The notes beneath the pieces are model-generated. The model saw nothing but the letters and a program-made list of their open reading frames with translations. It ran no database searches and was not told where the DNA came from. Position numbers and translations under genes: made by a program. Positions 34,094 to 54,942 of a stretch of 64,000 nucleotides of DNA are shown piece after piece; the first letter of the stretch is position 1; every line of letters starts with the position of its first letter. Source of the DNA: Candidatus Kuenenia stuttgartensis (GTDB lineage: Bacteria; Planctomycetota; Phycisphaerae; Phycisphaerales; SM1A02); NCBI GenBank assembly GCA_945902075.1, contig CAMDMA010000005.1, forward strand, positions 1-64,000. The letters run 5' to 3'.

Positions 34094-35071
34094 ATGTTTC
34101 CACTTCGACGACGCGATTTTCTTATGCAAAAAGAGCCTAACAACATCTTCGCGTCAAAGCGCTCGTCGACCCTTGCCTGTGGGTTGGCTGGCGTCATCGT
34201 CAGTGTTGTCTTTTCGGCGGCAAACGCGGGGACCCAAGAGACTCCCGCATCGAGTGACACGCGCGATCGGGGCGAGCCGCGCCCGCAAGTGGATCCCCGC
34301 GACCATCCGCGCCGCGAGGGTGGCACATCAAGGCAGGCGGCTCGATCCGAATTCGAGGCGATGCCGCTTCCTCCGGACTGGCCTCGTGCTGGTGGATTTG
34401 GGCCAAATCTTGGGTCCAATCTGAGTGGTGGTGCGGGTGGAGGACGCGCACGCCCACTGATCGAGGGGATGGTCATCGATGAAATGATGAGCGGCGAGTT
34501 CGGTCGTCGGGAGATGAGCGAGGCAGATGTCGCGCGCGTCGTCGCGGTCGCGAAACTTGTCTCGCCCGCATGGGGCGATGTTCTCGAAGCGCGCGCCAAG
34601 CAAGCTCCGGAGCAGTGGAGGCTTTCGTTGCGGTCCGATGGTCGAAGGCTCCTGGCATTGGTTGCGCTCCAAGAGCGTGCGCCGAAGGTGTTTGAGGCAA
34701 AGATCGTCGAGCTCCGTGCACAGGCAGAAACAGCGCGAATCGCAGGGGAATTGCGGCGCGCGACATCAGAAGTTGATGCCGAAGCGGCAGCTCCCGCGAA
34801 CAACGTCAATGTTGCTGAACTCGAGAAATCGCTCGAAGAGGCGGTTGCCGCGCAAGTGGCGGCGACGCTGGCCACGCGTCGCGAGGAACTTCTCGCGATC
34901 GAACAACGACTTGAGAAAATGCGTGCAGACCTTGACGCCGACGACGCCAATGCCGCGGCACTCGTCGAGGAGTTGAAGACACGCGCCCGCGCTCCGCGCA
35001 AGCCATCACGGGATTCGTCACGGGATTCGTCACGGGATTCGTCACGTGAATTGGAGCGCGAATCTCAGTAG
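34094..35071 (+). CDS. Secreted coiled-coil protein of unknown function
   Basis: The 325-aa product has a signal peptide (LACGLAGVIVSVVFSAANA), a disordered Pro/Arg/Gly-rich stretch, then a long Ala/Glu/Arg helical region (residues 130-300, with AELEKSLEEAVAAQVAATLATRREELLAIEQRLEKM-type heptads) and a C-terminal DSSR repeat. ATG 34094 is used; ATG 34124 (MQKEPNN) gives a more typical signal peptide. It is third in the ECF module and may be the target or sensor partner. The ABC permease gene follows after 10 bp. Confidence 0.65.
   Translation: MFPLRRRDFLMQKEPNNIFASKRSSTLACGLAGVIVSVVFSAANAGTQETPASSDTRDRGEPRPQVDPRDHPRREGGTSRQAARSEFEAMPLPPDWPRAGGFGPNLGSNLSGGAGGGRARPLIEGMVIDEMMSGEFGRREMSEADVARVVAVAKLVSPAWGDVLEARAKQAPEQWRLSLRSDGRRLLALVALQERAPKVFEAKIVELRAQAETARIAGELRRATSEVDAEAAAPANNVNVAELEKSLEEAVAAQVAATLATRREELLAIEQRLEKMRADLDADDANAAALVEELKTRARAPRKPSRDSSRDSSRDSSRELERESQ
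35006..35053 (+). repeat. 12-bp in-frame tandem repeat in the secreted coiled-coil gene
   Basis: Three perfect units TCACGGGATTCG followed by a degenerate fourth encode the SRDS-SRDS-SRDS run at the C-terminus of the preceding protein. Perfect identity between units suggests recent expansion. Confidence 0.9.
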
Positions 35072-35081
35072 CATTCACAGG

Positions 35082-36104
35082 ATGCATGCAGCTCGCGTCG
35101 CAGTCGAAGCAGGTCGTCCAACGCCGCGGGTGAGTCTCGGCTTCGCCGGACGTGCGGGATTCCTCGTACTTTCCTGCATTCTGTTGGCGTGCGTCGCGAC
35201 GCTCCCTTGGTCGATGGGTGCGGTTTCGACGGGCGCAACCCAACTTCCGAGATACGAAGCGTCGAACCTTTCGTTGAACCTTCTTCCTCCGTGGTGGCAG
35301 TCGCTCGAGGAGGTTGATGCTGCGCGTGTCGATGCCGCGCGCGAGGCTCGTCAATACATACCCGGTCGCGTGCTCGGGACCGATCGGCTTGGTCGCGACG
35401 TCCTCGCGCGCCTGCTCGTTGGCGGCTCGATTAGTTTGCTCGTCGGTTTGAGCGCCGCGTGCATCGCCGTGGTTGTAGGAACGCTCTACGGTTCCATCGC
35501 GGGTGCCGCTGGCGGCCGAACGGATGCAGCACTCATGCGCTTTGTCGACATCCTGTTCGGACTCCCATCGATCCTCCTCGTCGTACTTCTCGCAGTCGCC
35601 GTGGACGGCCTTCTCGAACGCCGTGGCGCTGATCTGCCGTTGGCATCACGACAACTCATCAATATTGCGACGCTTCTCCTCGCGATTGGCGGAATGAGTT
35701 GGCTCACGATGGCGCGTGTCATTCGCGGACAAGTCATGTCCCTCCGCGCAAAGCCGTTCATGGAATCCTGTCGAGCGATTGGCGTGGGTGCGCCGCGACA
35801 GTTCTTTGTCCATCTGTTGCCAAACCTCGTTGGGCCGATTGCCGTTTATGCGGCCCTCGCGGTACCGGCGGCGATCCTCTCTGAAAGTTTCCTGAGTTTC
35901 CTTGGGATCGGCGTCCGCGAGCCCCTCCCAAGTTGGGGCAATCTCGCTGCCGATGGACTGGGCGAACTCAACAGCGTCGACAGCCGTTGGTGGCTTCTCG
36001 CCGCGCCGTGCGGCGCCATCGCGTTGACCTTGGTATCGCTGAACTTTCTCGGCGATGAGTTGCGGGAACGGTTCGACCCAATGCGAGGTCGTCGTGCGGC
36101 GTGA
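35082..36104 (+). CDS. Peptide-type ABC transporter permease (DppC/OppC-like, copy 1)
   Basis: The 340-aa inner-membrane protein has an N-terminal helix, a periplasmic loop, then GRVLGTDRLGRDVLARLLVGGSISLLVGL, the HPLGTDxxGRD-type hallmark of OppC/DppC. The coupling EAA-like loop is CRAIGVGAPRQFFVHLLPNLVGPI, and the C-terminal SFLGIGVREPLPSWGNL block is family-typical. It should form a heterodimer with a B-type permease. ATG 35082 follows the secreted-protein stop by 10 bp. A second C-type permease lies at 39757-41253, so the locus has two. Confidence 0.92.
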   Translation: MHAARVAVEAGRPTPRVSLGFAGRAGFLVLSCILLACVATLPWSMGAVSTGATQLPRYEASNLSLNLLPPWWQSLEEVDAARVDAAREARQYIPGRVLGTDRLGRDVLARLLVGGSISLLVGLSAACIAVVVGTLYGSIAGAAGGRTDAALMRFVDILFGLPSILLVVLLAVAVDGLLERRGADLPLASRQLINIATLLLAIGGMSWLTMARVIRGQVMSLRAKPFMESCRAIGVGAPRQFFVHLLPNLVGPIAVYAALAVPAAILSESFLSFLGIGVREPLPSWGNLAADGLGELNSVDSRWWLLAAPCGAIALTLVSLNFLGDELRERFDPMRGRRAA

Positions 36105-36224
36105 TGTCTTCTCATGCCCGAATTGCAGAAGGGTCGGCAATGGCCGGAAAAAGTGACGGAGCCGTCGGCCTGATCGAGTGAGCGGTTAGGATGCGCCCCC
36201 CGTGTTACCGGGGAAGGTGCCACC

Positions 36225-38162
36225 ATGAACAACCGCTTTGGCTTCAAGGACTTCATTCAGATCGTGCTGCTCGGCGCGGTCGTTGTACTCGTGTGGCTGC
36301 AGATGGTGCAGGTCGATCGTGACCGCGTACTACAGCAGGATGTGCTCGCCAAGCTTGGCGCCATTGAAAAGCGGTTGGCAACCGGTGGTCAGGATGGTGG
36401 CTCTTCGAAGGAGCTGCTCTCGAAACTCACCGCGCTCGAGGATCGCCTTGCGAAGGGGGTCGTCGCTATCGCGAGCGGAGCCACGGCGGCGTCACCTCGC
36501 GGTGATGAGTCGTGGGCGCGGCCCGGGATTCGAATCTCGTGGCAGGAGCCATGGAACTTCGCCTCCGATCCGACAAAGGTTCCGGGCTTCACGGAGGGCG
36601 GCGAGTTCACCGAGATTTTCGAGGGTCAGCCAGCGAAAGTGACGCCATACCTCTCGAGCGACGTCTACGGACGACGCGTGATCGATCGAGTCGCCGACTC
36701 ACTTGGTGCCTACGACCCGCAATCGCTTCGTTTTCGCGGTGTTCTCGCGGCGGCCTGGCAGCAGGACCCGGATGGTTTTTGGATCCGCCTGCGCCTGCGC
36801 GATGGCGTGAAGTTCTCTGACGGCGAGCCACTCACCGCGGAGGACGTGCGTTGGACGTTCAAAGATTTCATTTTCAACCCATCTATCGAGGCGGAGCGGA
36901 CGCGATCGACTCTCGATCAGATCGTCGATGTAAAGGTGATCGATCCGCTCACCGTGGAATTCACTTTCTCGAAGGCACTCTCATTCAATCTTGAGTATGC
37001 GCTCGGCCAGTACGTACTTCCCAAGCACTTCTATTCGAAGTTTGAGCCCTCGCAGATCAACAGCTCGACAGGGCTGCTCGTCGGATCGGGTCCGTATCGG
37101 CTTGAGCGACTCGATCCAAGTGATCAGTGGACTCCTGGCAAGGACCTTGTTCTTGTGCGCAACGAGAACTACAACGGTCCGAGGTCGCCGCTTGACAGGA
37201 TGCGCTTCAAGGTCGTTCAAGACGATCTCGCGAGGCTGGTCGCCTATCGCAACGGTGAAGGCGACATGATCATCCCAACAAGTCCACAATTCGTGAAGAC
37301 CACGAAAGAGCCGGGTTGGGATGACACGAATCAGTCGCTCCAATGGATCAACATGCGGTCCGGGTACTCGTTCATCGCTTGGAACGGCGGTAAGCGCAAC
37401 GGGCGTCAGACGCCGTTTGGCGACAAGCGCGTTCGACAGGCGATGACGCTGTGCCTCGATCGCGAGAAGATGATCAATGACATCTGGGAAGGCATCGGCG
37501 TGGTTGCGAAGGGATCCGTAAACCCGGAAAGTCCTGCGTCAGATCCCGCGCTCAAGCCGTGGCCCTTTGATCCAATCAAGGGCAAGGCGCTACTCGCGGA
37601 ATGTGGTTGGCAGGATCGCAACGGCGACGGCATCCTTGAAAACGAAAAGGGCGAGCCGTTTCAATTTGAATTCACGCGTTCGGGTGGTGGCGAGATCGCT
37701 GAACGCATCTCGAACTTCGTGAAGGATAGTTATACAAAGGTTGGCATCGTCGTCACCGTGCGCGTCATCGACTGGTCGATCATGCAGGAAATTAGCAAGA
37801 GCCGAGATTTTGATGCGCTCACGATGGCTTGGTCAGCGAGCGCGCCGGAGAGCGATCCGCGGCAGATTTTCCATTCGGAATCGATCAAAGAAGGCGGCGA
37901 CAACTTTGTCCAGTGGAACTCGCCGCGCGCGGATGAACTGATCGACAAGGTTCGCTCGACGCTTGATTACGACACGCGCATGCAAGTCTGGCACGAGTTT
38001 GAGGCGACGCTGCACGATGAGCAGCCTTACACCTTTATTCGTGTCGCGCCGTGGTTGCGCTTCGTGAAGAAATCGATCGGCAACGTGCAAATGCATAAGA
38101 CTGGGCTGGAGCCCTGGGAGTTTTTTCGCATGGGCGCGGGCGCTGTTCCGCAGGCAAACTAA
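36225..38162 (+). CDS. ABC transporter substrate-binding protein (SBP_bac_5), membrane-anchored
   Basis: The 645-aa product carries the family 5 peptide/nickel-binding domain (about residues 130-610): FRGVLAAAWQQDPDGFWIRLRLRDGVKFSDGEPLTAEDV-type block, SGPYRLERLDP and GDKRVRQAMTLCLDREKM. Instead of a lipobox it has an N-terminal uncleaved-looking helix (IVLLGAVVVLVWLQMVQV) followed by two short coiled-coil segments (LAKLGAIEKRL, LSKLTALEDRL). It would therefore be tethered in the periplasm by a stalk. ATG 36225. It lies between the two permease groups and probably delivers oligopeptides, but ligand is unknown. Confidence 0.92.
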   Translation: MNNRFGFKDFIQIVLLGAVVVLVWLQMVQVDRDRVLQQDVLAKLGAIEKRLATGGQDGGSSKELLSKLTALEDRLAKGVVAIASGATAASPRGDESWARPGIRISWQEPWNFASDPTKVPGFTEGGEFTEIFEGQPAKVTPYLSSDVYGRRVIDRVADSLGAYDPQSLRFRGVLAAAWQQDPDGFWIRLRLRDGVKFSDGEPLTAEDVRWTFKDFIFNPSIEAERTRSTLDQIVDVKVIDPLTVEFTFSKALSFNLEYALGQYVLPKHFYSKFEPSQINSSTGLLVGSGPYRLERLDPSDQWTPGKDLVLVRNENYNGPRSPLDRMRFKVVQDDLARLVAYRNGEGDMIIPTSPQFVKTTKEPGWDDTNQSLQWINMRSGYSFIAWNGGKRNGRQTPFGDKRVRQAMTLCLDREKMINDIWEGIGVVAKGSVNPESPASDPALKPWPFDPIKGKALLAECGWQDRNGDGILENEKGEPFQFEFTRSGGGEIAERISNFVKDSYTKVGIVVTVRVIDWSIMQEISKSRDFDALTMAWSASAPESDPRQIFHSESIKEGGDNFVQWNSPRADELIDKVRSTLDYDTRMQVWHEFEATLHDEQPYTFIRVAPWLRFVKKSIGNVQMHKTGLEPWEFFRMGAGAVPQAN

Positions 38163-38198
38163 GCGTCGGTATGAGTGCGCGAGAGGAATGGTGACCGG

Positions 38199-39764
38199 AT
38201 GCTGAATTACATCGTCAGACGCATCCTCTTCATGTTGCCCACGGTGGTGGGGATCACGTTTCTCGTGTTCCTGCTGCTGGCGTTGTCGCCAGGTGGCATT
38301 GGTGCCGCAGTGTCTGCATCGACCGGTCAACAGGACGCGTCAAAGGCTGCGCTCTTGCAGGCCTATCTCGAGGATCGATACGGGCTCAACGACCCGGTGA
38401 TCGTGCAGTATGGACGTTGGCTCCATCGGCTTTCACCGGTCAAGTTCGGAACGCGCGATCAGTTGACACCGGCGGGTGAGCGGCTGCGCTCTCCGAAGGT
38501 GATTCCTGAGCCGCTGCTCGTCGGTTGGGGCGAGAGTTTAGGCTCGCGGTTGAAGACTTCGGAGGAGCTTGATGCAGCGGCCGCACTGATCATGGGAGTC
38601 GATGGAATCGCGCTCGACGCGGTTGATTCGACGGATCGGCAACGCGCCTATCGCAAAATCGCCAATGACGCGCTGACCACTCGCTCGCGCTATCTCGCGT
38701 CGAAGCGTTCATTTGAGAGTGCGCTCGTGGACTATGCGAATGCCGCTGGTCGTCAGGAGCTTCTCGACGCGAAGGGCAAGATCAAGTTGGGTGTGCTGGC
38801 GGGCGAAGAGCCTGACGCGGCCAATGGAGCGTGGCCGGGGGTTGTCTCTGCCTACAGCACGATGATTGACGCCTATCACGGTGCGCTTGCGGCGCGCGTG
38901 GTGTTGGAGCGGGCGTTCGCGGAGCGCGCGTTCCCAGAATCTGGATTCAACATCGTGCCCGGAGTGGTGTGGGTCGGGCTGCCCGATCTCGGAACGGCAT
39001 TCTCAAAGAGCCGTCCGGTGACAGAGCTGATCGCCAACGCACTCCCGGTGACGCTCTTACTCAACCTCATTGCGTTTCCCTTTATCTATCTCATCGCGAT
39101 CCCGTCTGGCGTACTCGCAAGCGCCCGCGCCGGATCGTGGTTCGACAAGTTGTCGGGTGCGACGTATGTGGCGCTCTGGTCGATTCCCACAGTGTGGGCG
39201 GGAGTGCTCGCGGTTGGATACCTCGCGAATCAGCAGTATCTCGGGTTGTTTCCCGTGTCGGGGCTTCACGATCGCGCTGCGGATGCGTGGACCTTTCTTC
39301 CTGGGACCCAAGCCGATGGATCGTGGGCAATGGGTTGGCTTCTCGACACGCTCTGGCACATGGTGCTGCCGATTGCCTGCTTGGTGTACGGTGGATTTGC
39401 TGTGCTGTCGAAGCAAACTCGTGCGGCAATGCTTGACAACTTCAACGCAGATTACGTTCGAACTGCGAAGGCGAAGGGCGTCGCCCGTAATGATGTCGTG
39501 ATTCATCACGTGTTCCGCAACAGCCTGCTCCCGCTGATCACAATGTTTGTCACCGTCTTTCCCGCAACCCTTGCCGGCTCGGTCGTGATCGAGCGGATCT
39601 TCTCCATTCCGGGGATGGGTAGCTTGATCCTTGACGCAATCAATCAGCGCGATCGTGAGTTGATTCTTGCCAACACGTTCATGATTGCGTGCGTCAATCT
39701 AAGCGCACTGCTGCTCGCGGACATTTTGTATGCGGTTGCCGATCCGCGGGTGAGCTATGAGTGA
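38199..39764 (+). CDS. Peptide-type ABC transporter permease (DppB/OppB-like) with a large periplasmic insertion
   Basis: The 521-aa protein starts MLNYIVRRILFMLPTVVGITFLVF (first helix), has RYGLNDPVIVQYGRWL as in OppB, and later LLLNLIAFPFIYLIAIPSGVLAS and the EAA loop VRTAKAKGVARNDVVIHHVFRNSLLPLI, followed by IERIFSIPGMGSLI. Relatives are about 310-340 aa. Here roughly 180 residues (about 85-270) are inserted in the first periplasmic loop, splitting the conserved GDLG-S segment. ATG 38199 has GAGAGGA upstream. It overlaps the next permease gene by 8 nt. Confidence 0.92.
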   Translation: MLNYIVRRILFMLPTVVGITFLVFLLLALSPGGIGAAVSASTGQQDASKAALLQAYLEDRYGLNDPVIVQYGRWLHRLSPVKFGTRDQLTPAGERLRSPKVIPEPLLVGWGESLGSRLKTSEELDAAAALIMGVDGIALDAVDSTDRQRAYRKIANDALTTRSRYLASKRSFESALVDYANAAGRQELLDAKGKIKLGVLAGEEPDAANGAWPGVVSAYSTMIDAYHGALAARVVLERAFAERAFPESGFNIVPGVVWVGLPDLGTAFSKSRPVTELIANALPVTLLLNLIAFPFIYLIAIPSGVLASARAGSWFDKLSGATYVALWSIPTVWAGVLAVGYLANQQYLGLFPVSGLHDRAADAWTFLPGTQADGSWAMGWLLDTLWHMVLPIACLVYGGFAVLSKQTRAAMLDNFNADYVRTAKAKGVARNDVVIHHVFRNSLLPLITMFVTVFPATLAGSVVIERIFSIPGMGSLILDAINQRDRELILANTFMIACVNLSALLLADILYAVADPRVSYE

Positions 39765-41253
39765 TCTGAAGCAAGGCGAGCCGCGCGCCATCAGCGGCAT
39801 CGAAGCGATGCGCGGTGTGGGAGCCGGGCGAGCGAAGGGTTTCTGGGCCGACGCGTGGGAGCGCGTTGTCGGGCGATTTGGCGCGCGATTGGCACTTGGC
39901 TGGATCGGGGCGATCGCATTCTTCGCGATTGCGGCGCCAGTGCTGGCGAATGCGCACCCAATGCTCCGGCGCAATCTCTCAACTGGTACGTGGGATTCAC
40001 CGCTCTGGCAGAATCTGACTGCGGTTGATCTCGTGCTGCTCGCGGGCGCTGTCTTCGGACTCCCGTTTGTCTGGATGCCAGTCGGTCTTGCAACTCGGTG
40101 CGGGATTGCCGAGCGCTCGACGAGACTCTCACTGCTACTCCTACTCGGGACTCAGGCTGGCATCACCGTCGTCGGCGCAAGTGCGATCTCAGCGTGGTCA
40201 CGCAATTTGGAAAGTGTGCCGTGGATTCGCGAGTTCGGTCGCGAGCCTTGGGCGCCATGGATCGCAGCAGGAGCGGTCGGGGCGATTGCCGCGACCCTGG
40301 CGGCCGCTGCCGTTGGCTTTCGCGCGTTCCGAACGGGGTTGGTTTTGATCGCGGCGATCATCGCGGTCTCGGCAGGCGCGTCGCGTTGGACGGATCGACT
40401 CGTCAATTTCGACGTATACGACGAGCAAGAGGCGTCGGGTGCGTATGCGATGACGTACACCCTTGTGCCGTTCTCGCCAGAATTTGGGCGTTCCGATCTC
40501 TACGTGCTGCCTCCGCTCACCAAGATCGCGGATGAGATTCCGGAAACGAAAGATCGCCCGATCGGCAATCGAGTGGTGCTCCTTGGAAGCGACGCGATCG
40601 GTAAGGACGTGCTCTCGCAGATGATGTGGGCGTGCCGACTGTCGATCTCCATCGGGTTGGTTTCGACGGGTCTTTCTGTCCTCATCGGCGTCACCATGGG
40701 CGCGATCATGGGCTACTTCGGCGGGTGGGTTGACTTGCTGCTTTATCGCATCGTCGAAATCTTTATGGCAATTCCAGTGCTCTTTCTGCTGATCGTCGCT
40801 GCTGCGGTGTTGCCGCGGAACACCTACATGATGATGGCGATCATCGGCTGTGTGTCTTGGACAGGAGCGGCGAGATTTACGCGTGCAGAGTTTTTGAAAC
40901 TCCGCAAACAGGACTTCGTGCAAGGTGCGCAGGCAGCGGGCCTGCCACTGCGGTCCGTGCTCTTTCGGCACATGCTGCCAAACGGCGTGACGCCGGTACT
41001 TGTTGATGCGTCCTTCGCGGTTGCTGCCGCAATCATTGCTGAGGCGACGCTGTCGTTTCTCGGTCTCGGCCCTGACGGACAGGCATCGTGGGGCAAGTTG
41101 CTGTCAAGCGCGACCGGAACTACGGGAACCTTCGTCTGGTGGCTCGCGATCTTCCCAGGCTTCGCCATTTTCTTCACGGTTCTGAGTTACAACATGCTCG
41201 GCGAAGCCATGCGCGATGCGATCGACCCGAAGCTCCGAAAGGCGGCGCACTGA
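39757..41253 (+). CDS. Peptide-type ABC transporter permease (DppC/OppC-like, copy 2) with extra membrane segments
   Basis: The 498-aa protein has the C-type hallmark [28 protein letters not shown] and the EAA loop [27 protein letters not shown], then [18 protein letters not shown]. It is about 200 residues longer than usual: between helix 1 and the core there are about four additional hydrophobic segments (residues 88-220). It overlaps the B-type gene upstream by 8 nt and the ATPase gene downstream by 1 nt, so all three are translated together. Confidence 0.92.
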
Positions 41254-42374
41254 TGACGGCCATCGCGAACCAGTCTGCGGATACCGCTGCGATGCGCACG
41301 AAACCGCTGCTTGAGGTGGCCGATCTTGCAGTGAGTTTTGCGAATTCTGCGGGTGGCCCGCGCATCCAAGCAGTTGCCGGCGTGTCGATGACCGTCCATC
41401 CGAATCAGACGCTCGCAGTCGTTGGCGAGTCTGGATGCGGGAAGAGCGTGACGGCGATGAGCACGATGCAACTCATTCCAAGACCTCCGGGACGCTTTGA
41501 CCGTGGGTCGATTCTGTTCGAAGGTCGCGATCTTCTGTCGCTACCTGAGCGGGAGATGTTGTCGGTTCGTGGTGGGAAGATCGCGATGATCTTCCAGGAG
41601 CCGATGACGAGCCTCAATCCGGTCTACACGATCGGTGATCAGATCATCGAGGCGGTACTGCTTCATCAGCGCGTGGGAGCAGAGGAGGCATGGAAGATTG
41701 CCGTTCGAGCGCTCACCGATGTGGGCATCACGAAGGCGGACGAGCGCATGCGAGCGTATCCGCACCAGTTCTCTGGCGGAATGCGCCAGCGCGTGATGAT
41801 CGCGATGGCGCTCGCGTGTCAGCCGACGCTGCTTCTCGCCGACGAGCCGACAACGGCACTCGATGTCACGATTCAGGCGCAAATCCTCGAGCTTCTTCGC
41901 GATCTTCAGCGCACACGGGGAATGGGAATCATGCTCATTACCCACAATCTCGGCGTGGTTGCTGAGAATGCCGACGTCGTTTGCGTGATGTACGCCGGTC
42001 GGGTTGTCGAGTATGCGCGCGTTTTTGAACTCTTTGATAACCCGCTTCACCCGTATACGCGCGGACTGTTTAACTCCATTCCGTTGCTCAAAGAGCGGAA
42101 GCATCGACTGACGACAGTGGAGGAGGTGGTGCGCGATCCAGCGCAGTACCGCGTGCGGGTGGGTGTCGGTGAAGCTGTGCGCGACGGAGGTGATCTCGTG
42201 CCGTGGTGGCCCGACGCACCGCAAGGAGTGAAACCCCCGATTGCCCGCGACCGAGACGAATACGCACTTGTGCAGGTCGCACCGACGCGTTGGGTCGCGT
42301 GTTTCAACACGCAGTGGGTTGAGGAACACCCAAGTCCGCGACCAGATCTCGACTACCGACGCGACGACTTTTGA
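41253..42374 (+). CDS. Peptide-type ABC transporter ATP-binding protein (DppD/OppD-like)
   Basis: The 373-aa ATPase has Walker [16 protein letters not shown]-loop [10 protein letters not shown], signature [15 protein letters not shown], Walker [13 protein letters not shown] and switch His in ITHNLGVV. The C-terminal oligopeptide/dipeptide domain with [12 protein letters not shown] and a further 90 residues follow. OppD-type ATPases normally pair with OppF; none is adjacent, so this one may act as a homodimer or with a distant partner. The ATG at 41253 overlaps the permease stop (TGATG). Confidence 0.95.
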
Positions 42375-46378: not shown

Positions 46379-46460
46379 TGGCGCGGCTGCGTGTGCGATC
46401 ACGTGATGCGGATACTTTCTGTTTGACTTCCAGAATTCGAAGCTTGGGAGAATGCACAAC

Positions 46461-47882
46461 ATGCGATCGGTAAATCCGTCGACCGGTGATGCGATTGGCG
46501 CGGATTTCCCCCGTTCATCGCGCGCAGATCTTGAGGCACTCGCTGACACGGCTTTCGATGCGATCGATGCGCTTGCCGATGCTCCGGGTGCAAAAATCGC
46601 TGGATTTCTCGAGGATTACGCGGCGAGGCTCGACTCTGATCGCGCTGGCATCGCTGCAATTGCGCACGAGGAAACTGCGCTTCCGCTCAGCCCCCGACTC
46701 TCCGAGGTTGAGTTCAACCGTATGACCTTTCAATTGCGTGCAGCGGCAGAGTGCCTGCGCGATGAATCTTGGCGCGAGGTCGCACGCGACGAGAAAAACG
46801 GATTGCGTTCGACGCTTGTACCTCTTGGTGGCGCGGTTGTTTGTTTTGGTCCGTCGAACTTTCCGCTCGCGTTCAACGGCGTGTCGGGTGGAGATTTCTG
46901 CGCCGCGATTGCCGCCCGTAATCCGGTGATCGCGAAGGCGCATCCTGCCCAGCTCAACACAACGGCCCGACTCTTCGCACATGCCTGCGCGGCGCGCGAT
47001 GGCGCGGGGCTACCAAAGGCCGCGGTTCAGTGCTTTTACGACTGCGACGCCGACGATGGCGAAGCGTTGATGACGCATGCGGCGGTCGCCGCGCTCGGCT
47101 TCACGGGATCGCGCGCCTCAGGGCTTCGGCTGAAGGCGGTCTGTGATCGGTTTGGGAAGCTGTCGAGTCTCGAGATGTCGAGCGTCAACCCCGTATTCGT
47201 TGCGAGCGCAGCTGGGTTGGAACGGGCGGAAGGCATCGCGGACGCCTGGGCCGCGTCGGTACTCCTCGGCGGTGGGCAATTTTGCACGAAGCCAGGTGTC
47301 ATCTTTGTTTCCGGCGAGGCTGCAGCCGCACGCATTGCGGAGCGCGCCACTCAAATCCTGCGCGCTGCGCAGCCCACGGTGCTGTTGAGCGAAGGTATTC
47401 GCACACATCTCGCGCAATCGCTTGATGCATTACGCGGTATCGGCGCGCGACTCATGTGCGGCGGAAATCAAGTCGGCCCCGGATTCCGCTTCGAACCGAC
47501 GCTTTGCGTGCTTGATGCGGGCAAGGCGCGCGCGAATCGTTCGATTGCGCTGCGGGAGGCATTCGGTCCGCTCGGGCTCGTGATTGCGATTGAAGGGGAT
47601 GCGCAACTCGTCGACTTTGCGCGCATGCTTGACGGCCAACTCGCCGCGACGATGGTCTCTGACGCAGCCGACGCAGCAACGCGAGACACCCTGCTCAGCA
47701 TCCTTCGATTCAAAGTGGGACGGCTGCTTGATGAGGCGATGCCCACCGGAGTGACGGTGTCGCCTGCGATGGTGCATGGCGGCCCGTTTCCCGCGACCGG
47801 TGATATGCGCTTCACCGCGGTCGGTATTCCGACCGCAGTGAAGCGATTTTCCAAACTGCTGTGTCTCGATCGAGTGCGATGA
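46461..47882 (+). CDS. 2,5-dioxopentanoate (alpha-ketoglutarate semialdehyde) dehydrogenase-type aldehyde dehydrogenase
   Basis: The protein of about 473 aa has aldehyde dehydrogenase motifs: VCFGPSNFPLAF (Asn), GSRASGLRLKAV, SLEMSSVNPVFV (general-base Glu near 238) and GGGQFCTKPGV (catalytic Cys near 275), plus FTAVGIPTAVKRF at the end. The GPSNFPLAFN, LGGGQFCTKPG and HGGPFPATGD features are those of the NADP-dependent ketoglutarate semialdehyde dehydrogenase branch. The enzyme makes alpha-ketoglutarate, the last step of hydroxyproline and some sugar-acid pathways. ATG 46461 has GGGAG 10 nt upstream; ATG 46452 is too close to it. DapA-family and proline-racemase-family genes a few kb away support the hydroxyproline role. 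Confidence 0.88.
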   Translation: MRSVNPSTGDAIGADFPRSSRADLEALADTAFDAIDALADAPGAKIAGFLEDYAARLDSDRAGIAAIAHEETALPLSPRLSEVEFNRMTFQLRAAAECLRDESWREVARDEKNGLRSTLVPLGGAVVCFGPSNFPLAFNGVSGGDFCAAIAARNPVIAKAHPAQLNTTARLFAHACAARDGAGLPKAAVQCFYDCDADDGEALMTHAAVAALGFTGSRASGLRLKAVCDRFGKLSSLEMSSVNPVFVASAAGLERAEGIADAWAASVLLGGGQFCTKPGVIFVSGEAAAARIAERATQILRAAQPTVLLSEGIRTHLAQSLDALRGIGARLMCGGNQVGPGFRFEPTLCVLDAGKARANRSIALREAFGPLGLVIAIEGDAQLVDFARMLDGQLAATMVSDAADAATRDTLLSILRFKVGRLLDEAMPTGVTVSPAMVHGGPFPATGDMRFTAVGIPTAVKRFSKLLCLDRVR

Positions 47883-47885
47883 GGC

Positions 47886-48668
47886 TTAGTTTGTCCAGTT
47901 CGCAAGCAGCAGCGAGAGATCGGCTGCGCCAGTTGTGCCATCTTCATCGATATCGCTGATGCCTTGCATGTTCCAGTTTGCGAGAAGGATTGAGAGATCG
48001 GACGCGCGAACAACACCATCGCCGTCGAGATCGCCGATGGGTGCGCACCAGTCGAGCAGTCCATCGCCATTCGTGTCCGAACCGAGACCGAACGCAAGCA
48101 CGAGCGAGTCTGGAATGAGATCGCTGTCGCAGTCGAGCATGGTCGCGGGGAATGCGACGACAGCACGACGAACGTTACTCTCGCCCGTACCAATCGGTGC
48201 GTCAGTCCACTGTTGCGAGTGTGCGTGCATCACAGCACCGAGGGCGAGCTCAGGCGAATTTGCCGGGCCACCTTTGCCGAACGCGAGATAGTCAGCAGTG
48301 TCTCCCTCGACGGTTTGCCAGTTCATCCCACCGTAACCATTCGGAATGTGGACGATTCCGAGCCATGCTGCGTTGTCATCCGGGTTGCCTGAATCAATGA
48401 GAAGGAGGCTGATGGCCGCGCTGAAGTTGTCGTTCCCATCCGCGGGAATCGCAAGGCAACCTCCGAGCGGTGCGACGACGGCCTGCACGTCCTGCGGGAG
48501 TACGCCAGAAGCGAACTCAATGGCGACATAGTTGATCTCGGCACCATCACGGCTGAATCCGTAACCACTGATCGCGGTGACCGGGGGCAGCGCAGAAGCG
48601 GTTGGGATTGCGACGACGGGGAGGACGACGGCGGTGGTGATGGCGATGTTGGCGAAGAGATTGCTCAT
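47886..48668 (-). CDS. Secreted protein with C-terminal dockerin-like calcium repeats (1)
   Basis: The 260-aa product has a signal peptide (IAITTAVVLPVVAIPTASA) and ends with two calcium-loop repeats: DLDGDGVVRASDLSILLANWN and DIDEDGTTGAADLSLLLANWTN, the dockerin/EF-hand-like module common in Planctomycetota surface proteins. An additional DTNGDGLLDWC motif precedes them. The middle domain (about 150 aa) is unrecognised. It converges with the aldehyde dehydrogenase gene (3-bp gap), and the second dockerin-like protein gene follows upstream on the same strand. Role probably extracellular, substrate unknown. Confidence 0.8.
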   Translation of the reverse strand: MSNLFANIAITTAVVLPVVAIPTASALPPVTAISGYGFSRDGAEINYVAIEFASGVLPQDVQAVVAPLGGCLAIPADGNDNFSAAISLLLIDSGNPDDNAAWLGIVHIPNGYGGMNWQTVEGDTADYLAFGKGGPANSPELALGAVMHAHSQQWTDAPIGTGESNVRRAVVAFPATMLDCDSDLIPDSLVLAFGLGSDTNGDGLLDWCAPIGDLDGDGVVRASDLSILLANWNMQGISDIDEDGTTGAADLSLLLANWTN

Positions 48669-48895
48669 AGATCAACAAATCGGCCGTGCTCCTTTCTGGG
48701 TACAGCCGGAGATCAAATGTGAAGAGTAAAAAGTGAAATTGAGATGCCCGTGCGTCGTCGAAATAGACCGCTCGTGCCGATTGGGTGATTCGCGCGGGCG
48801 TGCGCAATAAGCATGCGAGTGAGAGCATCGCGTCGCATGTCGCCGCGACGCGCGCGCGCTGCGTGCCCGTCAACTCGCGTTGCGATGTGGTGACT

Positions 48896-49726
48896 TCAGG
48901 ACCAATTCGCAAGCAGTATGGAAAGATCCATGGCGTTCACCGCTCCATCGCAATTGAGATCGGCGACGTCGCCTCCGACGCCAAAGTTCGAAAGCAGCAG
49001 GCCGAGATCCGCAGCACCGACCTGTCCGTCGCGATCGATGTCTCCAAAGATATTGCCTTTTGAAGTGCAGCTATCCGGGACAGCGTCGCCGTTACAGTCC
49101 ATCGCGAGCCCGGTCGCGAGGGCAAGGTCGTCGGGAACTCCATCCTCATCGCAATCGTCGAAGGGGAGCGCAACGAGAAAGAGGGCGCGCTGGCAGCGCG
49201 AACCTGCTTCCGGGCCGCTGGTGTTTGCGTGCCACTCGCCAGAGTCGGGAGCGATCGTGGCCACGAGCGGAATACGCGGAGTGATCACAGGGGTGCCGAT
49301 CGCGAACGCCGAAAAACGAAGCGGTGCGTTGTCAACATCGCGCCACGCAAAGGCGTTGCTTGCGATCGGTAGATGCGACGCGCCGATCCACGCCAATGGG
49401 CAAGTTGGCTCGCTGCTCCCGAGAGGATCGGGAAGGCTCCCAAGCGTCAAGGCGAAGAGCGCGTTCTCGTCCGAGTTTGTGGGGAGCGCAAGCTCGCCCG
49501 CAAACGCGCGCGCGGTCGCCTCAGATTCGGATGCCGAGACCGATGCAGTCCACTCGATCGCGATGAGTTGAAACGGAATCCCGCCGCGCGAGAGTGACGC
49601 CGACATCGCAGCTTGCGCGGGCGGTGCCGCATTCGCGGTCGCGCCAACCCCTGTTGCCAAAAGCGTCGCGATGCCAACATTGGCTCGCATCGCCATTGAG
49701 GGCGTCACACCCGAAAGAATCCTCAT
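48896..49726 (-). CDS. Secreted protein with C-terminal dockerin-like calcium repeats (2)
   Basis: The protein of about 276 aa has a signal peptide (VGIATLLATGVGATANA) and C-terminal repeats DIDRDGQVGAADLGLLLSNFG and DLNCDGAVNAMDLSILLANWS, as in the neighbouring gene, plus DCDEDGVPDDLALATGLAMD resembling a thrombospondin-type calcium motif. The cores share the pattern of an LxG(S/N)...AWIG segment and a calcium-rich stretch, so the two are distant paralogues. The start is uncertain (ATG 49726, 49774 or 49696). It diverges from the FAD oxidoreductase gene. Unknown function. Confidence 0.75.
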   Translation of the reverse strand: MRILSGVTPSMAMRANVGIATLLATGVGATANAAPPAQAAMSASLSRGGIPFQLIAIEWTASVSASESEATARAFAGELALPTNSDENALFALTLGSLPDPLGSSEPTCPLAWIGASHLPIASNAFAWRDVDNAPLRFSAFAIGTPVITPRIPLVATIAPDSGEWHANTSGPEAGSRCQRALFLVALPFDDCDEDGVPDDLALATGLAMDCNGDAVPDSCTSKGNIFGDIDRDGQVGAADLGLLLSNFGVGGDVADLNCDGAVNAMDLSILLANWS

Positions 49727-49898
49727 CCGTGCAACGGATAGCTTCGGCGAACTGTGGAGATTAGGCGAATTCATCTTGTGCGAGAGCAGTTTACGTTTAG
49801 ATTGCACGGGTTCGGCCCGAGAGCAACTCAAAATCGGCGTCATTCCCCAACATTGTGTGAATCACGCGCTGCTTCACGATCGCCACTCAGGGAAACTT

Positions 49899-51386
49899 TT
49901 GTCAAACCCGACCTCCATCTCTCGTCGTCTGGTGTTGCGTGTTGGAGCCGCTGCTGCTCTTTCGCCGCTGATCCGCGTCCCGCTCCACGCGGGCGACCCA
50001 CCGTGCAACGGGTCAATCACGGAGACCGATCTTGCGTTGCTTGAGAAAGCGCTTCCTGGGCGAGTGCTGTTCGCTGCGCACGGAGACTACCCGGCACTCA
50101 GTCGGAGTTGGAATGGCCGTCATCTCTCGCGCCCCATCGCCGTGGTTCGCGCTGCGGATGCGAGCGATGTGAGCGCTGCCGTCCAATGGGCACGGGTCCG
50201 CGATGTCGCGGTCGTCGCGCGCTCTGGCGGACACAGTTACATCGGTGATTCGATCGGTAACGGGATTATCGTTGATGTCTCGCCGATGTCGTCGATCGCA
50301 TTCAATGCGCTCTCAGGACAGGTGCGAGTTGGTGGTGGAACAAGGCTTGGGCCACTTTACTCAAGCCTCTATTGCGAACACGGGCAGCGCACGATTACAA
50401 GCGGCTCGGGTTCAAGCGTGGGAGTCTCAGGAATCACCCTCGGCGGCGGCTACAACTCGTCGTCGCGGCTGTTTGGGCTCACGATCGACGCGCTGCGCGC
50501 CGCCGAGGTCGTACTCGCAGACGGTTCGATCGTGCAAACCGATAGCACTCACGAGCCGGATCTCTTTTGGGCGATTCGCGGGGGCGGCGCATCGTTTGGA
50601 ATCGTGACGGCGCTTGAGTTTGAAACGCGCCCATGGGTTCCGCTGGCGGTTGTCACGATGACGTGGGCGTGGGCCGATGCCGCGACTGCTTTTGCGGCTT
50701 GGAGTCAGTGGATCGCAAGCCTTCCGGCGGGCGCGACCAGCTCGAGTACTTGGGTTTCTTCTGGCACGAAATCAAGCCAGCGCTTCCGAACGACCGTTCG
50801 CTCTGTTGGTGGGAGCGCTGCCGCAACCGCACTCGCTGATTCTCTTGAAAAGGCGGTCGGTGCGATTTCGACGCGCGTTGCATCCGTTTCGACTGCGCCC
50901 GTCTGCGGTGATGATGGCATTGCGACCGGCGCACCTTCGAAGAACACCTCACTGCTGCCAACCGACGATGTTCCACTTGCAGCGGCTGCGCAGATTGCCT
51001 CCGCGATCGAAGCGCGTATCGGCACACCGAATCTGCCACGCGGTGATGTCGCCCAGATTTTCTCACATGCCTTCGGAGGCGTTGTCGCTGCGGTCGGTGT
51101 CGGTGATACAGCGTTTCCTCATCGCGGCGCGCGCATGATCACGCAACTCATCTCCGGGTGGTCGAATGGCGCGACCGTGGCTCGGGTGGACGCAAACATC
51201 GCGTGGCTTCGGAACTTGCACTCCGCGCTCCGACCAGCATTTGGACCAAGTTGCTACCTCAACTACGCGGACGAGGGAGTTGCCGATTGGCGCACGGCAT
51301 ATTGGGGAGCGAATCTTCCCCGCCTCGAGCAGATCAAGCGCGCGTATGACCCTTCGCGATATTGGCGAGGAAAGCAGTTCGTCTAA
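49899..51386 (+). CDS. FAD-linked oxidoreductase of the berberine-bridge-enzyme type, with a Tat signal
   Basis: The 495-aa product starts with a twin-arginine signal (SISRRLVLRVGAAAALSPL), so it is folded with FAD in the cytoplasm and exported. The FAD-binding domain has VVARSGGHSYIGDS, with His112 as likely covalent flavin attachment site, and GVSGITLGGGYN, SRLFGLTIDAL and RGGGASFGIVTALEF. The C-terminal BBE block (CYLNYADEGV, YWGANLPRLEQIKRAYDPSRYW) is clear. The second covalent-attachment Cys of bicovalent relatives is not present (region reads SGSGSSVGVSG). TTG 49899 has AGGGA 5 nt upstream. Substrate unknown; family members oxidise sugars, alkaloids or amines with O2. Confidence 0.88.
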   Translation: MSNPTSISRRLVLRVGAAAALSPLIRVPLHAGDPPCNGSITETDLALLEKALPGRVLFAAHGDYPALSRSWNGRHLSRPIAVVRAADASDVSAAVQWARVRDVAVVARSGGHSYIGDSIGNGIIVDVSPMSSIAFNALSGQVRVGGGTRLGPLYSSLYCEHGQRTITSGSGSSVGVSGITLGGGYNSSSRLFGLTIDALRAAEVVLADGSIVQTDSTHEPDLFWAIRGGGASFGIVTALEFETRPWVPLAVVTMTWAWADAATAFAAWSQWIASLPAGATSSSTWVSSGTKSSQRFRTTVRSVGGSAAATALADSLEKAVGAISTRVASVSTAPVCGDDGIATGAPSKNTSLLPTDDVPLAAAAQIASAIEARIGTPNLPRGDVAQIFSHAFGGVVAAVGVGDTAFPHRGARMITQLISGWSNGATVARVDANIAWLRNLHSALRPAFGPSCYLNYADEGVADWRTAYWGANLPRLEQIKRAYDPSRYWRGKQFV

Positions 51387-52319
51387 TCATCGCGGGCGCT
51401 TGGCAATTGCGTGGCGAATGATCTCAAGTGCGCGTGCGCGCTCCGCACCATCGACTGGTTGGCGCGGCGCACGCACGCGCTCGTCACCCGTCTGTGTTTC
51501 TGCCATCGCGAGTTTGATGAGCTGCACGAAATCCGGCACGGTGTCCAAACGCAGAAGCGGAAGAAACCACGCGTAGAGCGCGTCGCATGCCGCTCGATTC
51601 GTCGCGTCAAGCGACTGAGCAAGCGTGAACAGGTGCACGCTCTCCAGTGGCATGGCGTTGGCAAGACCAGCGATCCAGCCGCACGCACCGATACGCGCAC
51701 CTTCGACCGCGCAGTCATCAAGTCCGACGAGCGCACCGACCTTGCGAGTGCGAGTCGAGCTTCCGGCGACAAGCGCGGTCAGACGTCGCGCGTCACCGGA
51801 CGAGTCTTTGACCGCAACGAGATTCGCGTGACGGTCCGCTATTTCAAATGTCTGCTCCGCGCTCACATCAACGATGTACGCGGCCGGATTGTTGTAGAGC
51901 ATCATCGGTAGTGCCGCTGCCGAGAGCATTGCTTCGAAATGCGCGCGATACTCGCGCCAAGATCCCTTGTGCACATATGGAGGAAGAATCATGCAGCCGC
52001 GCACGCCGATCTCCGCAGCGTGCTCGACCTGACGGACCGCATCGCGGGTGGACGCTGCAGAGATGGTGGCGAAAGTGTTGCCTTTCCCCTCACTTGCGGC
52101 GCAAATCGTTCGCCAGCCCTCAATGCGCTCGTCTAAGGCGAGCGTCTGTCCCTCGCCAAGCGAGCCGGGCCAGACGGTGCCGGTGCAACCTGCGTCAAGC
52201 ATGCGGTGGGTGAGTTTCGCGATGCCGGTCACGCAAAGGGAACCGTCCTCACGAAACGGTGTGACGAGCGCAGGGATAACACCGCGAAACGGCGAGCCGA
52301 CGGAATCGGTGGACAGCAT
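51387..52319 (-). CDS. Dihydrodipicolinate synthase-family enzyme, likely Pyr4H2C deaminase (hydroxyproline pathway)
   Basis: The 310-aa TIM-barrel aldolase/lyase has the Schiff-base lysine in VAVKDSSGDARR (Lys171), the tyrosine in LYNNP (Tyr142) and PALVTPF near the N-terminus. The usual GTTGE reads GSLGEGQTL here, so it is not DapA itself. Adjacent, divergent to a hydroxyproline-epimerase gene (38-bp gap), it most likely deaminates/dehydrates 1-pyrroline-4-hydroxy-2-carboxylate to alpha-ketoglutarate semialdehyde, the substrate of the dehydrogenase encoded at 46461. The alternative is a keto-deoxy sugar-acid dehydratase. ATG 52319. It converges exactly on the FAD oxidoreductase gene. Confidence 0.85.
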   Translation of the reverse strand: MLSTDSVGSPFRGVIPALVTPFREDGSLCVTGIAKLTHRMLDAGCTGTVWPGSLGEGQTLALDERIEGWRTICAASEGKGNTFATISAASTRDAVRQVEHAAEIGVRGCMILPPYVHKGSWREYRAHFEAMLSAAALPMMLYNNPAAYIVDVSAEQTFEIADRHANLVAVKDSSGDARRLTALVAGSSTRTRKVGALVGLDDCAVEGARIGACGWIAGLANAMPLESVHLFTLAQSLDATNRAACDALYAWFLPLLRLDTVPDFVQLIKLAMAETQTGDERVRAPRQPVDGAERARALEIIRHAIAKRPR

Positions 52320-52357
52320 CGCCGCAGAGTAGCAGCGACGCGCAGTATGCTGCGTGC

Positions 52358-53335
52358 GTGAAAATCGAGCGATTCGTCGACAGTCATACGGAAGGTGAGC
52401 CGACCCGCGTACTGCTTGCGCCGGACGGCGGACTTTTTCAGCTCACGCTCCCTGAGTTACTCGTGCGTTGGACCCATGACGGAGTCTTACAGATCCCGCC
52501 GGAGTGTCTCGCACTCGCTGCCAATCCACGCGCGGCCGACGCAACGGTTTGTGCGTTGGTCTGTCGCGGTTCAAAACCGGGGGCGATGTGCGGCGTTCTC
52601 TTTTGGAATGCTTCGGCCCCGCTTGGAATGTGCGGTCATGCGACCATTGGCCTCGCACGCACGCTTGTCCATCTCGGATTCGAGCTCCCCGCGCGAGCAA
52701 TAGTCGAGACACGTGTTGGTGATGTTGTAGTTCGTGTGCTTGAGGATGGTCGTATCGCGTTTGACAATGTCGTTGCCCACATCCATGCACGCGATGTTGA
52801 AGTCGTGCTCGACCAAGGTGGTGTTGCGCGCGGCGATATCGCATGGGGCGGCAACTGGTTTTTCATCGTTCGCCATGACGGTGCCAAGGGCCGCGCGATG
52901 CGCACACACACTGAGGAACTCGCGTACGCAGCGTCGATCCTCCGAGCGCTCGAACGCGCAGGGATCAAAGGTGGAACAGCAAATGGTGGCGTGATTGACC
53001 ATGTCGAACTTCTGTTCAATCCGTCCCGACCCGAAGCAAACGCGCGCAACTTTGTGCTCTGCCCAAACGGAACATTCGACCGATCGCCCTGCGGAACCGG
53101 AACAAGTGCGTTGCTCGCGTCGCTTGCCGCGCGCGGCGAACTCTCGCCGGGTGCAGTTTGGCGGCAGGAATCTGCGATTTCGAGCATGTTTGAGGCTCGT
53201 TACGCAGTCGTCGAGGCGGATGTAGAAGCGATCCTTCCAACGATTGCCGGTCGCGCTTTTCTCGTGGCCGAGGGCTCGTTCGTACATGACGCTGCCGACC
53301 CATCCCGTGGTGGCGGATGGAAGGAAGTTCGATGA
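52358..53335 (+). CDS. 4-Hydroxyproline 2-epimerase (proline racemase superfamily)
   Basis: The 325-aa enzyme carries both catalytic cysteines of the racemase/epimerase type: GMCGHATIGLA (Cys92) and DRSPCGTGTSAL (Cys245). This excludes the trans-3-hydroxyproline dehydratases, which lack one of them. The N-terminal DSHTEGEPTRVL block is family-typical. It interconverts trans-4-hydroxy-L-proline and cis-4-hydroxy-D-proline in the cytoplasm. GTG 52358 is the only fitting start. It diverges from the deaminase gene and overlaps the malic enzyme gene by 4 nt, so it feeds the carbon flow to pyruvate. Confidence 0.9.
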   Translation: MKIERFVDSHTEGEPTRVLLAPDGGLFQLTLPELLVRWTHDGVLQIPPECLALAANPRAADATVCALVCRGSKPGAMCGVLFWNASAPLGMCGHATIGLARTLVHLGFELPARAIVETRVGDVVVRVLEDGRIAFDNVVAHIHARDVEVVLDQGGVARGDIAWGGNWFFIVRHDGAKGRAMRTHTEELAYAASILRALERAGIKGGTANGGVIDHVELLFNPSRPEANARNFVLCPNGTFDRSPCGTGTSALLASLAARGELSPGAVWRQESAISSMFEARYAVVEADVEAILPTIAGRAFLVAEGSFVHDAADPSRGGGWKEVR

Positions 53336-54942
53336 GGAAAGACGCGCACGAGATTTTGTACAACCCGCGACTCAACAAAGGCACGGCATTCGGTGAGGCA
53401 GAGCGGGAACTCCTCGGGCTCACGGGACTCTTTCCAGATGCGGTCGAGACTGGCGAATTGCAACGCATGCGCGCGCTCGCGCAACTCGCCCATCGTGCCA
53501 ACGACCTCGAACGCTACATCTATCTCTCCGAGCTCCAAGACCGCAACGAACGCCTCTTCTACCAACTTCTGCGCGCGGATCCCGTGCGTCATATGCCGAT
53601 TGTCTACACCCCGACCGTCGGCGAGGCATGTCAGAAGTTTGGGCACATCATGCGTCGACCGAAGGGGCTCTATGTTTCGCTGAAGCACCGTGGGCGCATC
53701 GCGGACATCCTGCGCAACTGGCCTGAATCGGATGTGCGCATCATCTGTGTCACCGACGGCGAGCGGATTCTTGGATTGGGTGACCTTGGAATATGCGGCA
53801 TGGGAATTCCGGTCGGAAAACTGGCGCTCTACACCGCGATCGGCGGGGTACATCCTGCGCGTTGCATGCCGGTGGTGCTTGATGTGGGCACCAACAACCA
53901 GGGATTTCTCGAGGATCCGCTCTATCCCGGCCTTCGCGCACCGCGGACGCGCGGGCCGGAGTACGACGCGTTTGTCGAAGAATTCGTGGTCGCGGTGCAG
54001 CAGGTCTTCCCACGTTGCTGCATCCAATTCGAGGATTTCCACAACACGACAGCGATTCCACTTCTCGCGCGATATCGCGATCGTGTGTGCTGTTTCAATG
54101 ACGACATCCAAGGCACCGCTGCAGTGGCGGTCGCGGGCTTATTCGCTGCGTGCCGGGCGCTCAACAACACGCTTGCGGATCATCGCTATCTGTTTTTCGG
54201 CGCAGGTAGTGCTGCGACAGGAATCGCCGAACTCGTTATCGAGGCCATGAAGTCGCGTGGAGTGAGCGAGACCGATGCGCGCGCACGTATCTGGCTCATG
54301 AATTCGAAGGGACTTGTTGTCCGCGACAATCCTGGCATTCAGCCGCATCAGCGCGAGTTCGTTCGTGAGGGGCGCCTTGAGCCGACGCTACTTGAGGCAG
54401 TGAAGGCGGTGCGGCCGACGGTGCTCATCGGAACAAGCACCCAGCCCGCCACCTTCACTCGCGAGGTTCTTGGGTCAATGCGCGACTATTGCGATCAACC
54501 GGTCGTGTTCCCGTATTCGAACCCGACATCGCGCTCGGAGTGCACCGCGGAACAAGCGTGGACCTGGACAGACGGCATGGCGATCTTTGCCTCAGGTTCG
54601 CCATTCGCGCCGGTCGCGATTGATGGTCGCGTACTCATTCCTGGTCAAGGCAACAATGTCTACATCTATCCTGCCGTTGGGCTCGCGGTGTTTGCAACGG
54701 AGGCATCGCGTGTGACCGACGAGATGTTTCTTCGCGCAGCAGAATCGCTGGCTGCCCGTACGTCAGACGCGGAACTTTCGGTTGGGCTCATTTATCCGCC
54801 GATTGAGCGCATTCATCAGTCGGCAGTCGAGGTCGCGGTTGAGGTCGCTGAACTCATTTTCGATCGAGGCCTCGCTCGTGTCGAGCGACCATCGGACATC
54901 AACGCGTGGATCCGCTCGAAGGTCTACGACCCTGCGTATTGA
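53332..54942 (+). CDS. NAD(P)-dependent malic enzyme (large, oxaloacetate-decarboxylating type)
   Basis: The 536-aa enzyme decarboxylates malate to pyruvate. Conserved blocks: YTPTVGEACQKFGHI (Tyr), GLGDLGICGMGIPVGKLALY (Lys), FEDFHNTTAIPLLARYR and FNDDIQGTAAVAVAG (metal-binding Glu/Asp), and FFGAGSAATGIAEL (nucleotide binding). The length and the N-terminal RGTAF-type segment (LNKGTAF) fit the MaeA/SfcA family (about 540-565 aa). The ATG at 53332 overlaps the epimerase stop (ATGA). Ketoglutarate from hydroxyproline would pass through the TCA cycle to malate, so this enzyme fits as the exit to pyruvate. Confidence 0.95.
   Translation: MRKDAHEILYNPRLNKGTAFGEAERELLGLTGLFPDAVETGELQRMRALAQLAHRANDLERYIYLSELQDRNERLFYQLLRADPVRHMPIVYTPTVGEACQKFGHIMRRPKGLYVSLKHRGRIADILRNWPESDVRIICVTDGERILGLGDLGICGMGIPVGKLALYTAIGGVHPARCMPVVLDVGTNNQGFLEDPLYPGLRAPRTRGPEYDAFVEEFVVAVQQVFPRCCIQFEDFHNTTAIPLLARYRDRVCCFNDDIQGTAAVAVAGLFAACRALNNTLADHRYLFFGAGSAATGIAELVIEAMKSRGVSETDARARIWLMNSKGLVVRDNPGIQPHQREFVREGRLEPTLLEAVKAVRPTVLIGTSTQPATFTREVLGSMRDYCDQPVVFPYSNPTSRSECTAEQAWTWTDGMAIFASGSPFAPVAIDGRVLIPGQGNNVYIYPAVGLAVFATEASRVTDEMFLRAAESLAARTSDAELSVGLIYPPIERIHQSAVEVAVEVAELIFDRGLARVERPSDINAWIRSKVYDPAY

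Follow-up and report, generated by a model that had tools for sequence, protein, structure and literature searches.

A probable trans-4-hydroxy-L-proline degradation island in a planctomycete, with the oxidase gene most likely unlinked

Breakdown of trans-4-hydroxy-L-proline via the epimerase pathway is represented by LhpA/LhpB of Pseudomonas aeruginosa and by the hyp locus on pSymB of Sinorhizobium meliloti. In a genome neighborhood network, 4-hydroxyproline 2-epimerase (HypE) associates with the DAAO, DHDPS and aldehyde dehydrogenase families (PMC4113996), and the hydroxyproline operon of Streptomyces coelicolor includes a D-amino acid oxidase (DAO)-type beta subunit (PMC6608401). An archaeal D-proline dehydrogenase was reported to convert cis-4-hydroxy-D-proline (PMC4364671). 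Here we analyze an island in a 64,000-nucleotide stretch (the window; positions 1 to 64,000 of contig CAMDMA010000005.1, assembly GCA_945902075.1, genome label G000) of Candidatus Kuenenia stuttgartensis. Like the P. aeruginosa and S. meliloti loci, it combines an epimerase, a DapA-family lyase and a 2-ketoglutarate semialdehyde dehydrogenase (KGSADH)-like enzyme. Unlike them, it carries a malic enzyme instead of a DAO beside the epimerase, the lyase gene lies on the strand opposite to the other island enzymes, and in this genome a berberine bridge enzyme (BBE)-type flavoenzyme is inserted. With moderate confidence we explain it as an ordinary trans-4-hydroxy-L-proline island whose predicted oxidase is encoded elsewhere, most plausibly by a DadA-type gene on contig C43, and in which the BBE is a passenger. 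The features are:

46452-47882, plus strand: KGSADH-like aldehyde dehydrogenase, proposed last step (Pfam Aldedh, 134.8 bits)
47883-51386: lineage-specific insert between KGSADH and DapA, comprising two secreted-protein genes and the BBE gene, recognized by the spacing in congeners
47886-48668, minus strand: Peri1, secreted protein, paralogue of Peri2 (34% identical), weak dockerin match below cut-off
48896-49843, minus strand: Peri2, secreted protein, divergent to BBE, weak dockerin match below cut-off (Pfam, NCBIfam)
49671-51386, plus strand: BBE-type flavoenzyme with twin-arginine signal (FAD_binding_4, 87.2 bits; BBE, 45.4 bits)
51387-52319, minus strand: DapA-family lyase (Pfam DHDPS, 142.3 bits)
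52358-53335, plus strand: HypE, predicted 4-hydroxyproline 2-epimerase of the proline racemase superfamily, Cys/Cys type (Pro_racemase, 211.6 bits)
53317-54942, plus strand: malic enzyme (Malic_M and malic domains; PRK13529, 706.6 bits, above cut-off)

Pfam and NCBIfam confirm the families of the five genes named in a preliminary description of this DNA, and neither the open reading frames nor a Pfam DAO search revealed a DAO-type gene inside the island, as that description had stated. HypE is closest to 4-hydroxyproline epimerases by both NCBIfam and Protein Data Bank (PDB) matches. Its best NCBIfam model is 4-hydroxyproline epimerase (259 bits, under the cut-off of 442 bits) and it shares about 43% identity with the annotated P. 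aeruginosa enzyme. The two catalytic cysteines expected for this family are both present in the motifs MCGHATIG and DRSPCGTGT, which align with those of annotated epimerases; the same Cys/Cys pair occurs in the solved epimerase Q4KGU2 (PMC4113996). On pSymB of S. meliloti, a DapA-family gene close to the hydroxyproline genes is 31% identical to the lyase, and an aldehyde dehydrogenase of the hydroxyproline region is 35% identical to the KGSADH-like enzyme. Nearest solved chains of the latter are 3v4c and 1eyy, and its best NCBIfam model, 2,5-dioxovalerate dehydrogenase, reaches 77.6 of the 750 bits set as cut-off. Because the specific NCBIfam models score below their cut-offs, we infer the substrates of epimerase, lyase and aldehyde dehydrogenase from the gene set. 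Taken as a set, the genes make the assignment to the epimerase route well supported, in accordance with the preliminary description.

According to this assignment, HypE would convert trans-4-hydroxy-L-proline to cis-4-hydroxy-D-proline, from which an FAD enzyme, with the C43 DadA as best candidate, would form pyrroline-4-hydroxy-2-carboxylate. The DapA-family lyase would deaminate this intermediate to 2-ketoglutarate semialdehyde, which the KGSADH-like enzyme would turn into 2-ketoglutarate. The malic enzyme, whose gene overlaps that of HypE by 19 bases, may serve as the exit of 2-ketoglutarate carbon from the citric acid cycle. The overlap had been pointed out before, and the malic enzyme proves to be a stable neighbor, adjoining HypE in all 13 congeneric genomes that have HypE.

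Alternatively, the substrate of the island could be a different one, as in proline racemization or the use of 3-hydroxyproline, and DapA and the aldehyde dehydrogenase would then serve other purposes. This would fit the NCBIfam scores, which fall below cut-off for each of the three enzymes and by a wide margin for the aldehyde dehydrogenase, as well as the promiscuity of some proline racemase superfamily members (PMC4113996). We nevertheless consider this alternative unlikely, as the epimerase lies nearest to 4-hydroxyproline epimerases and has their Cys/Cys pair, and as lyase and aldehyde dehydrogenase are jointly present in conserved order.

The expectation that the genome would lack a standard DAO-type enzyme did not hold. 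A Pfam DAO search of its 70 contigs returned 21 matches, three of which span the whole domain. The strongest candidate for the D-hydroxyproline step is a full-length DadA-type protein (contig C43, 20647-22071; locus L001, 1348-2772; DAO, 231 bits). It resembles DadA-type D-amino acid dehydrogenases in its full-length DAO domain, in having PRK00711 (D-amino acid dehydrogenase) as best NCBIfam model and in 29% identity to Escherichia coli DadA; unlike a typical DadA it scores below the PRK00711 cut-off (237 against 383 bits). The second full-length DAO, on contig C34, is sarcosine/N-methyl-tryptophan-oxidase-like (DAO, 141 bits; PRK11259, 361.6 bits, cut-off 257). The third, on contig C3 (L002), is GlpD-like, and we set it aside because it scores as a glycerol-3-phosphate dehydrogenase and adjoins a glycerol-kinase-like frame. 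A query with LhpB, the P. aeruginosa record annotated as D-hydroxyproline dehydrogenase subunit beta, detected no LhpB-type enzyme in this genome; it matched the DadA locus alone, with 30% identity over part of LhpB.

Scanning the class for HypE gave 25 of 248 genomes, and we examined the 24 loci besides our own. A DAO lies near HypE in 15 of them: 14 have it within 600 bases, and in L057, where HypE itself shares only 32% identity, the distance is about 4 kb. An LhpB-type DAO near HypE (42-52% identical to LhpB) is present in ten class loci. In four of the 24 (L040, L043, L044 and L048) a DadA-type DAO, 32-34% identical to our DadA, is found directly beside HypE, two of these four in the same order. 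The nine loci with no nearby DAO come from seven genomes of the same family and from G131 and G160, and a DadA-type match is present elsewhere in each of these nine genomes except G160. G131 has HypE, KGSADH and DapA together without a DAO, which is located on another contig. In a wider scan, we inspected the best 80 of 583 HypE loci (neighbors at E 1e-10), two of which coincide with the contigs of G316 and G209: DAO was found in 69, DapA in 53, KGSADH in 24 and malic enzyme in 2.

Within the family (181 genomes; E 1e-25 for HypE, E 1e-40 for DadA-type), 67 genomes carry HypE, 134 a DadA-type enzyme, 101 a C34-type oxidase and 24 a BBE. DadA occurs in 60 of the 67 HypE carriers versus 74 of the 114 non-carriers, counts that are uncorrected for kinship. 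The seven carriers without DadA (G268, G285, G365, G388, G400, G407 and G408) are 68-88% complete, and when the count is restricted to genomes with completeness of 90% or more and contamination of 5% or less, DadA is present in 40/40 HypE carriers versus 43/64 others. A stricter DadA list at about 48% identity gave 59/67 versus 24/114 with a far smaller p value; that threshold tracks kinship and we do not rely on it. In one family genome (G262), a weak LhpB-like DAO with 28% identity (L196, C8:22499-23614) lies about 2.7 kb from HypE.

The C34 oxidase could also be proposed for the D-hydroxyproline step. It is full-length, clears its PRK11259 cut-off and is found in 48 of the 67 HypE carriers versus 53 of the 114 others. 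Against this, its type is missing in 19 of the 67 carriers, including the well-assembled G305 and G358, and is not the type found beside HypE, so that we regard this role as improbable.

Several observations weigh against an ordinary island served by the C43 DadA. The NCBIfam scores of DadA, HypE, DapA and KGSADH all lie under their cut-offs, with strong family-level matches, and DadA shares no more than 26-29% identity with LhpB, with the DAO of S. meliloti and with E. coli DadA. At 97.25% completeness the genome could contain an unseen DAO gene. DadA and HypE are on different contigs in the family matches compared, and their joint presence is confounded by kinship; DadA also occurs in the HypE-free family genomes counted above and so does other work too. 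G160 presents a HypE locus without DapA, KGSADH and DAO, with no DadA match in its genome. We placed 55 DAOs in a quickly computed maximum-likelihood tree with many unresolved forks, where our DadA falls into a 28-row clade (support 99) of family and order relatives with zero HypE-adjacent members. The DadA-type enzymes that adjoin HypE group into small clades of their own, and the deep branching order is unresolved. Since its clade has no HypE-adjacent member, we limit any claim that our DadA is a dedicated enzyme; a DadA of broad specificity would suffice for the D-hydroxyproline step. In favor of an unlinked oxidase, the same tree shows that the unlinked DAO of G131 groups with the HypE-adjacent DAO of G066 (96% support in the Shimodaira-Hasegawa-like approximate likelihood ratio test), a pair that offers a parallel for a DAO becoming unlinked from HypE.

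The position of the BBE was compared across 16 congeneric genomes, our own included; the junction between KGSADH and DapA is judgeable in 12, and the other four have contig ends or no island contig. In nine of the 12 (G316, G318, G322, G323, G325, G327, G328, G209 and G084), KGSADH and DapA are 9-225 bases apart without a BBE. The full insert of BBE and two secreted-protein genes is seen in our genome. Partial versions occur in G319, where KGSADH is followed by a secreted protein, BBE and the contig end, and in G321, where DapA is followed by BBE and the contig end. The order of the island genes, malic enzyme included, is kept within the genus, across which DapA adjoins HypE or sits in its locus. 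Because two other genera of the family also show narrow KGSADH-DapA gaps (about 95 bases in L049, about 79 in L191), this adjacency is probably ancestral. The BBE, probably together with its secreted-protein partners, would thus have entered between KGSADH and DapA.

Among solved structures, 9p1o and EncM are nearest to the BBE, and 6-hydroxy-D-nicotine oxidase (2bvf) ranks lower, at 109 bits. The BBE shares the FAD_binding_4 and BBE domains and the RSGGHS motif, with its histidine, with EncM and 6-hydroxy-D-nicotine oxidase; in contrast to that group it has a twin-arginine signal and a glycine in place of a cysteine. Cysteine at this column often makes the second bond to the flavin, and it is present in all seven aligned relatives (L158 is unaligned there). 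Because glycine replaces it, the flavin may be attached through one covalent bond only. The export signal announced in the preliminary description is confirmed, as the twin-arginine (SRR) motif is common to the relatives G317, G319 and G321. Judged by this signal, the real start is probably the TTG near 49899.

The preliminary description had proposed that the BBE may replace the missing dehydrogenase. It would then act extracytoplasmically, and just in those few species whose island contains a BBE. The BBE does lie inside the island in our genome, and G319 and G321 show the same up to their contig ends. Moreover, 6-hydroxy-D-nicotine oxidase oxidizes a pyrrolidine ring, so activity on D-hydroxyproline is chemically possible. 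These points are outweighed by the insertion pattern, the distribution and the export signal, which led us to reject it: the BBE is missing from nine judgeable junctions of congeners that retain the rest of the island; it occurs in 12 of the 67 HypE carriers and 12 of the 114 other family genomes (Fisher p 0.18, no association), shares the HypE contig in just two of the 12 family genomes having both (G000 and G321) and was found near HypE in none of the best 80 of 583 wider loci at E 1e-10; among solved structures it is closest to 9p1o and to enzymes of the EncM type; it has its own regular neighbors; and it carries a twin-arginine signal, whereas no such signal was noted on epimerase or lyase. 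The preliminary description had regarded a co-induced DAO-type dehydrogenase elsewhere in the genome as decisive against its proposal, and a candidate gene of the DAO type is indeed located elsewhere. We consider a catalytic role of the BBE in the pathway very improbable, and it is most likely an exported passenger.

The regular neighbors of the BBE are homologues of the window's secreted proteins. Of 27 BBE loci we examined 23, leaving aside four partial class loci; 18 have such a homologue beside the BBE, 16 divergent, one convergent and one tandem. In the other five, no partner is seen within the available stretch, which in one case is truncated by the end of the contig. Loci with the recurring pair are the window (47886-51386), L155, L158-L172 and L096. 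The window's secreted protein has 47 matches in its own genome at E 1e-5, mostly to the C-terminal tail of large proteins, which suggests that the tail is a widespread sorting or anchoring element. Because dockerin-like tails are common alone, the pairing rests on matches reaching beyond the tail. Pfam Lectin_C was matched in five of ten partner proteins, one above cut-off, with no match in the window's own two secreted proteins, so that a lectin-like reading of the latter is by homology. The AlphaFold model of Peri1, built from a two-row alignment, has a mean pLDDT of 33.2.

Speculatively, and at low probability, BBE and partner could form an undescribed cell-surface oxidase module: the partner, lectin-like and possibly anchored by a dockerin, would capture a glycan or glycoprotein for the BBE to oxidize. 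If so, the captured food might be, for example, a hydroxyproline-rich algal glycoprotein, and insertion into the island could have been selected because both serve the same food.

Upstream of the island, at a distance of a few genes, the window encodes a dipeptide/oligopeptide-type ATP-binding cassette (ABC) transporter (35046-42374; permeases, family 5 binding protein and ATPase), and an ABC transporter ATPase gene is located upstream of the island in several congeners too. This transporter could be a candidate importer of hydroxyproline peptides. Searches of open-licence literature found nothing linking hydroxyproline, Planctomycetes and proline racemase, nothing relevant on Phycisphaerae and hydroxyproline, and nothing on a planctomycete berberine bridge enzyme with a C-type lectin or dockerin.

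Overall, the pathway of this planctomycete is most likely a known one whose oxidase gene is unlinked. A pathway may seem incomplete when one of its genes is unlinked, and a nearby flavoenzyme should not be taken as the gap filler. For Phycisphaerae, the hydroxyproline oxidase would either belong to two or more DAO types (LhpB-like, DadA-like) or be unlinked from the epimerase, and the pair of BBE and secreted protein provides a separate, testable lead.

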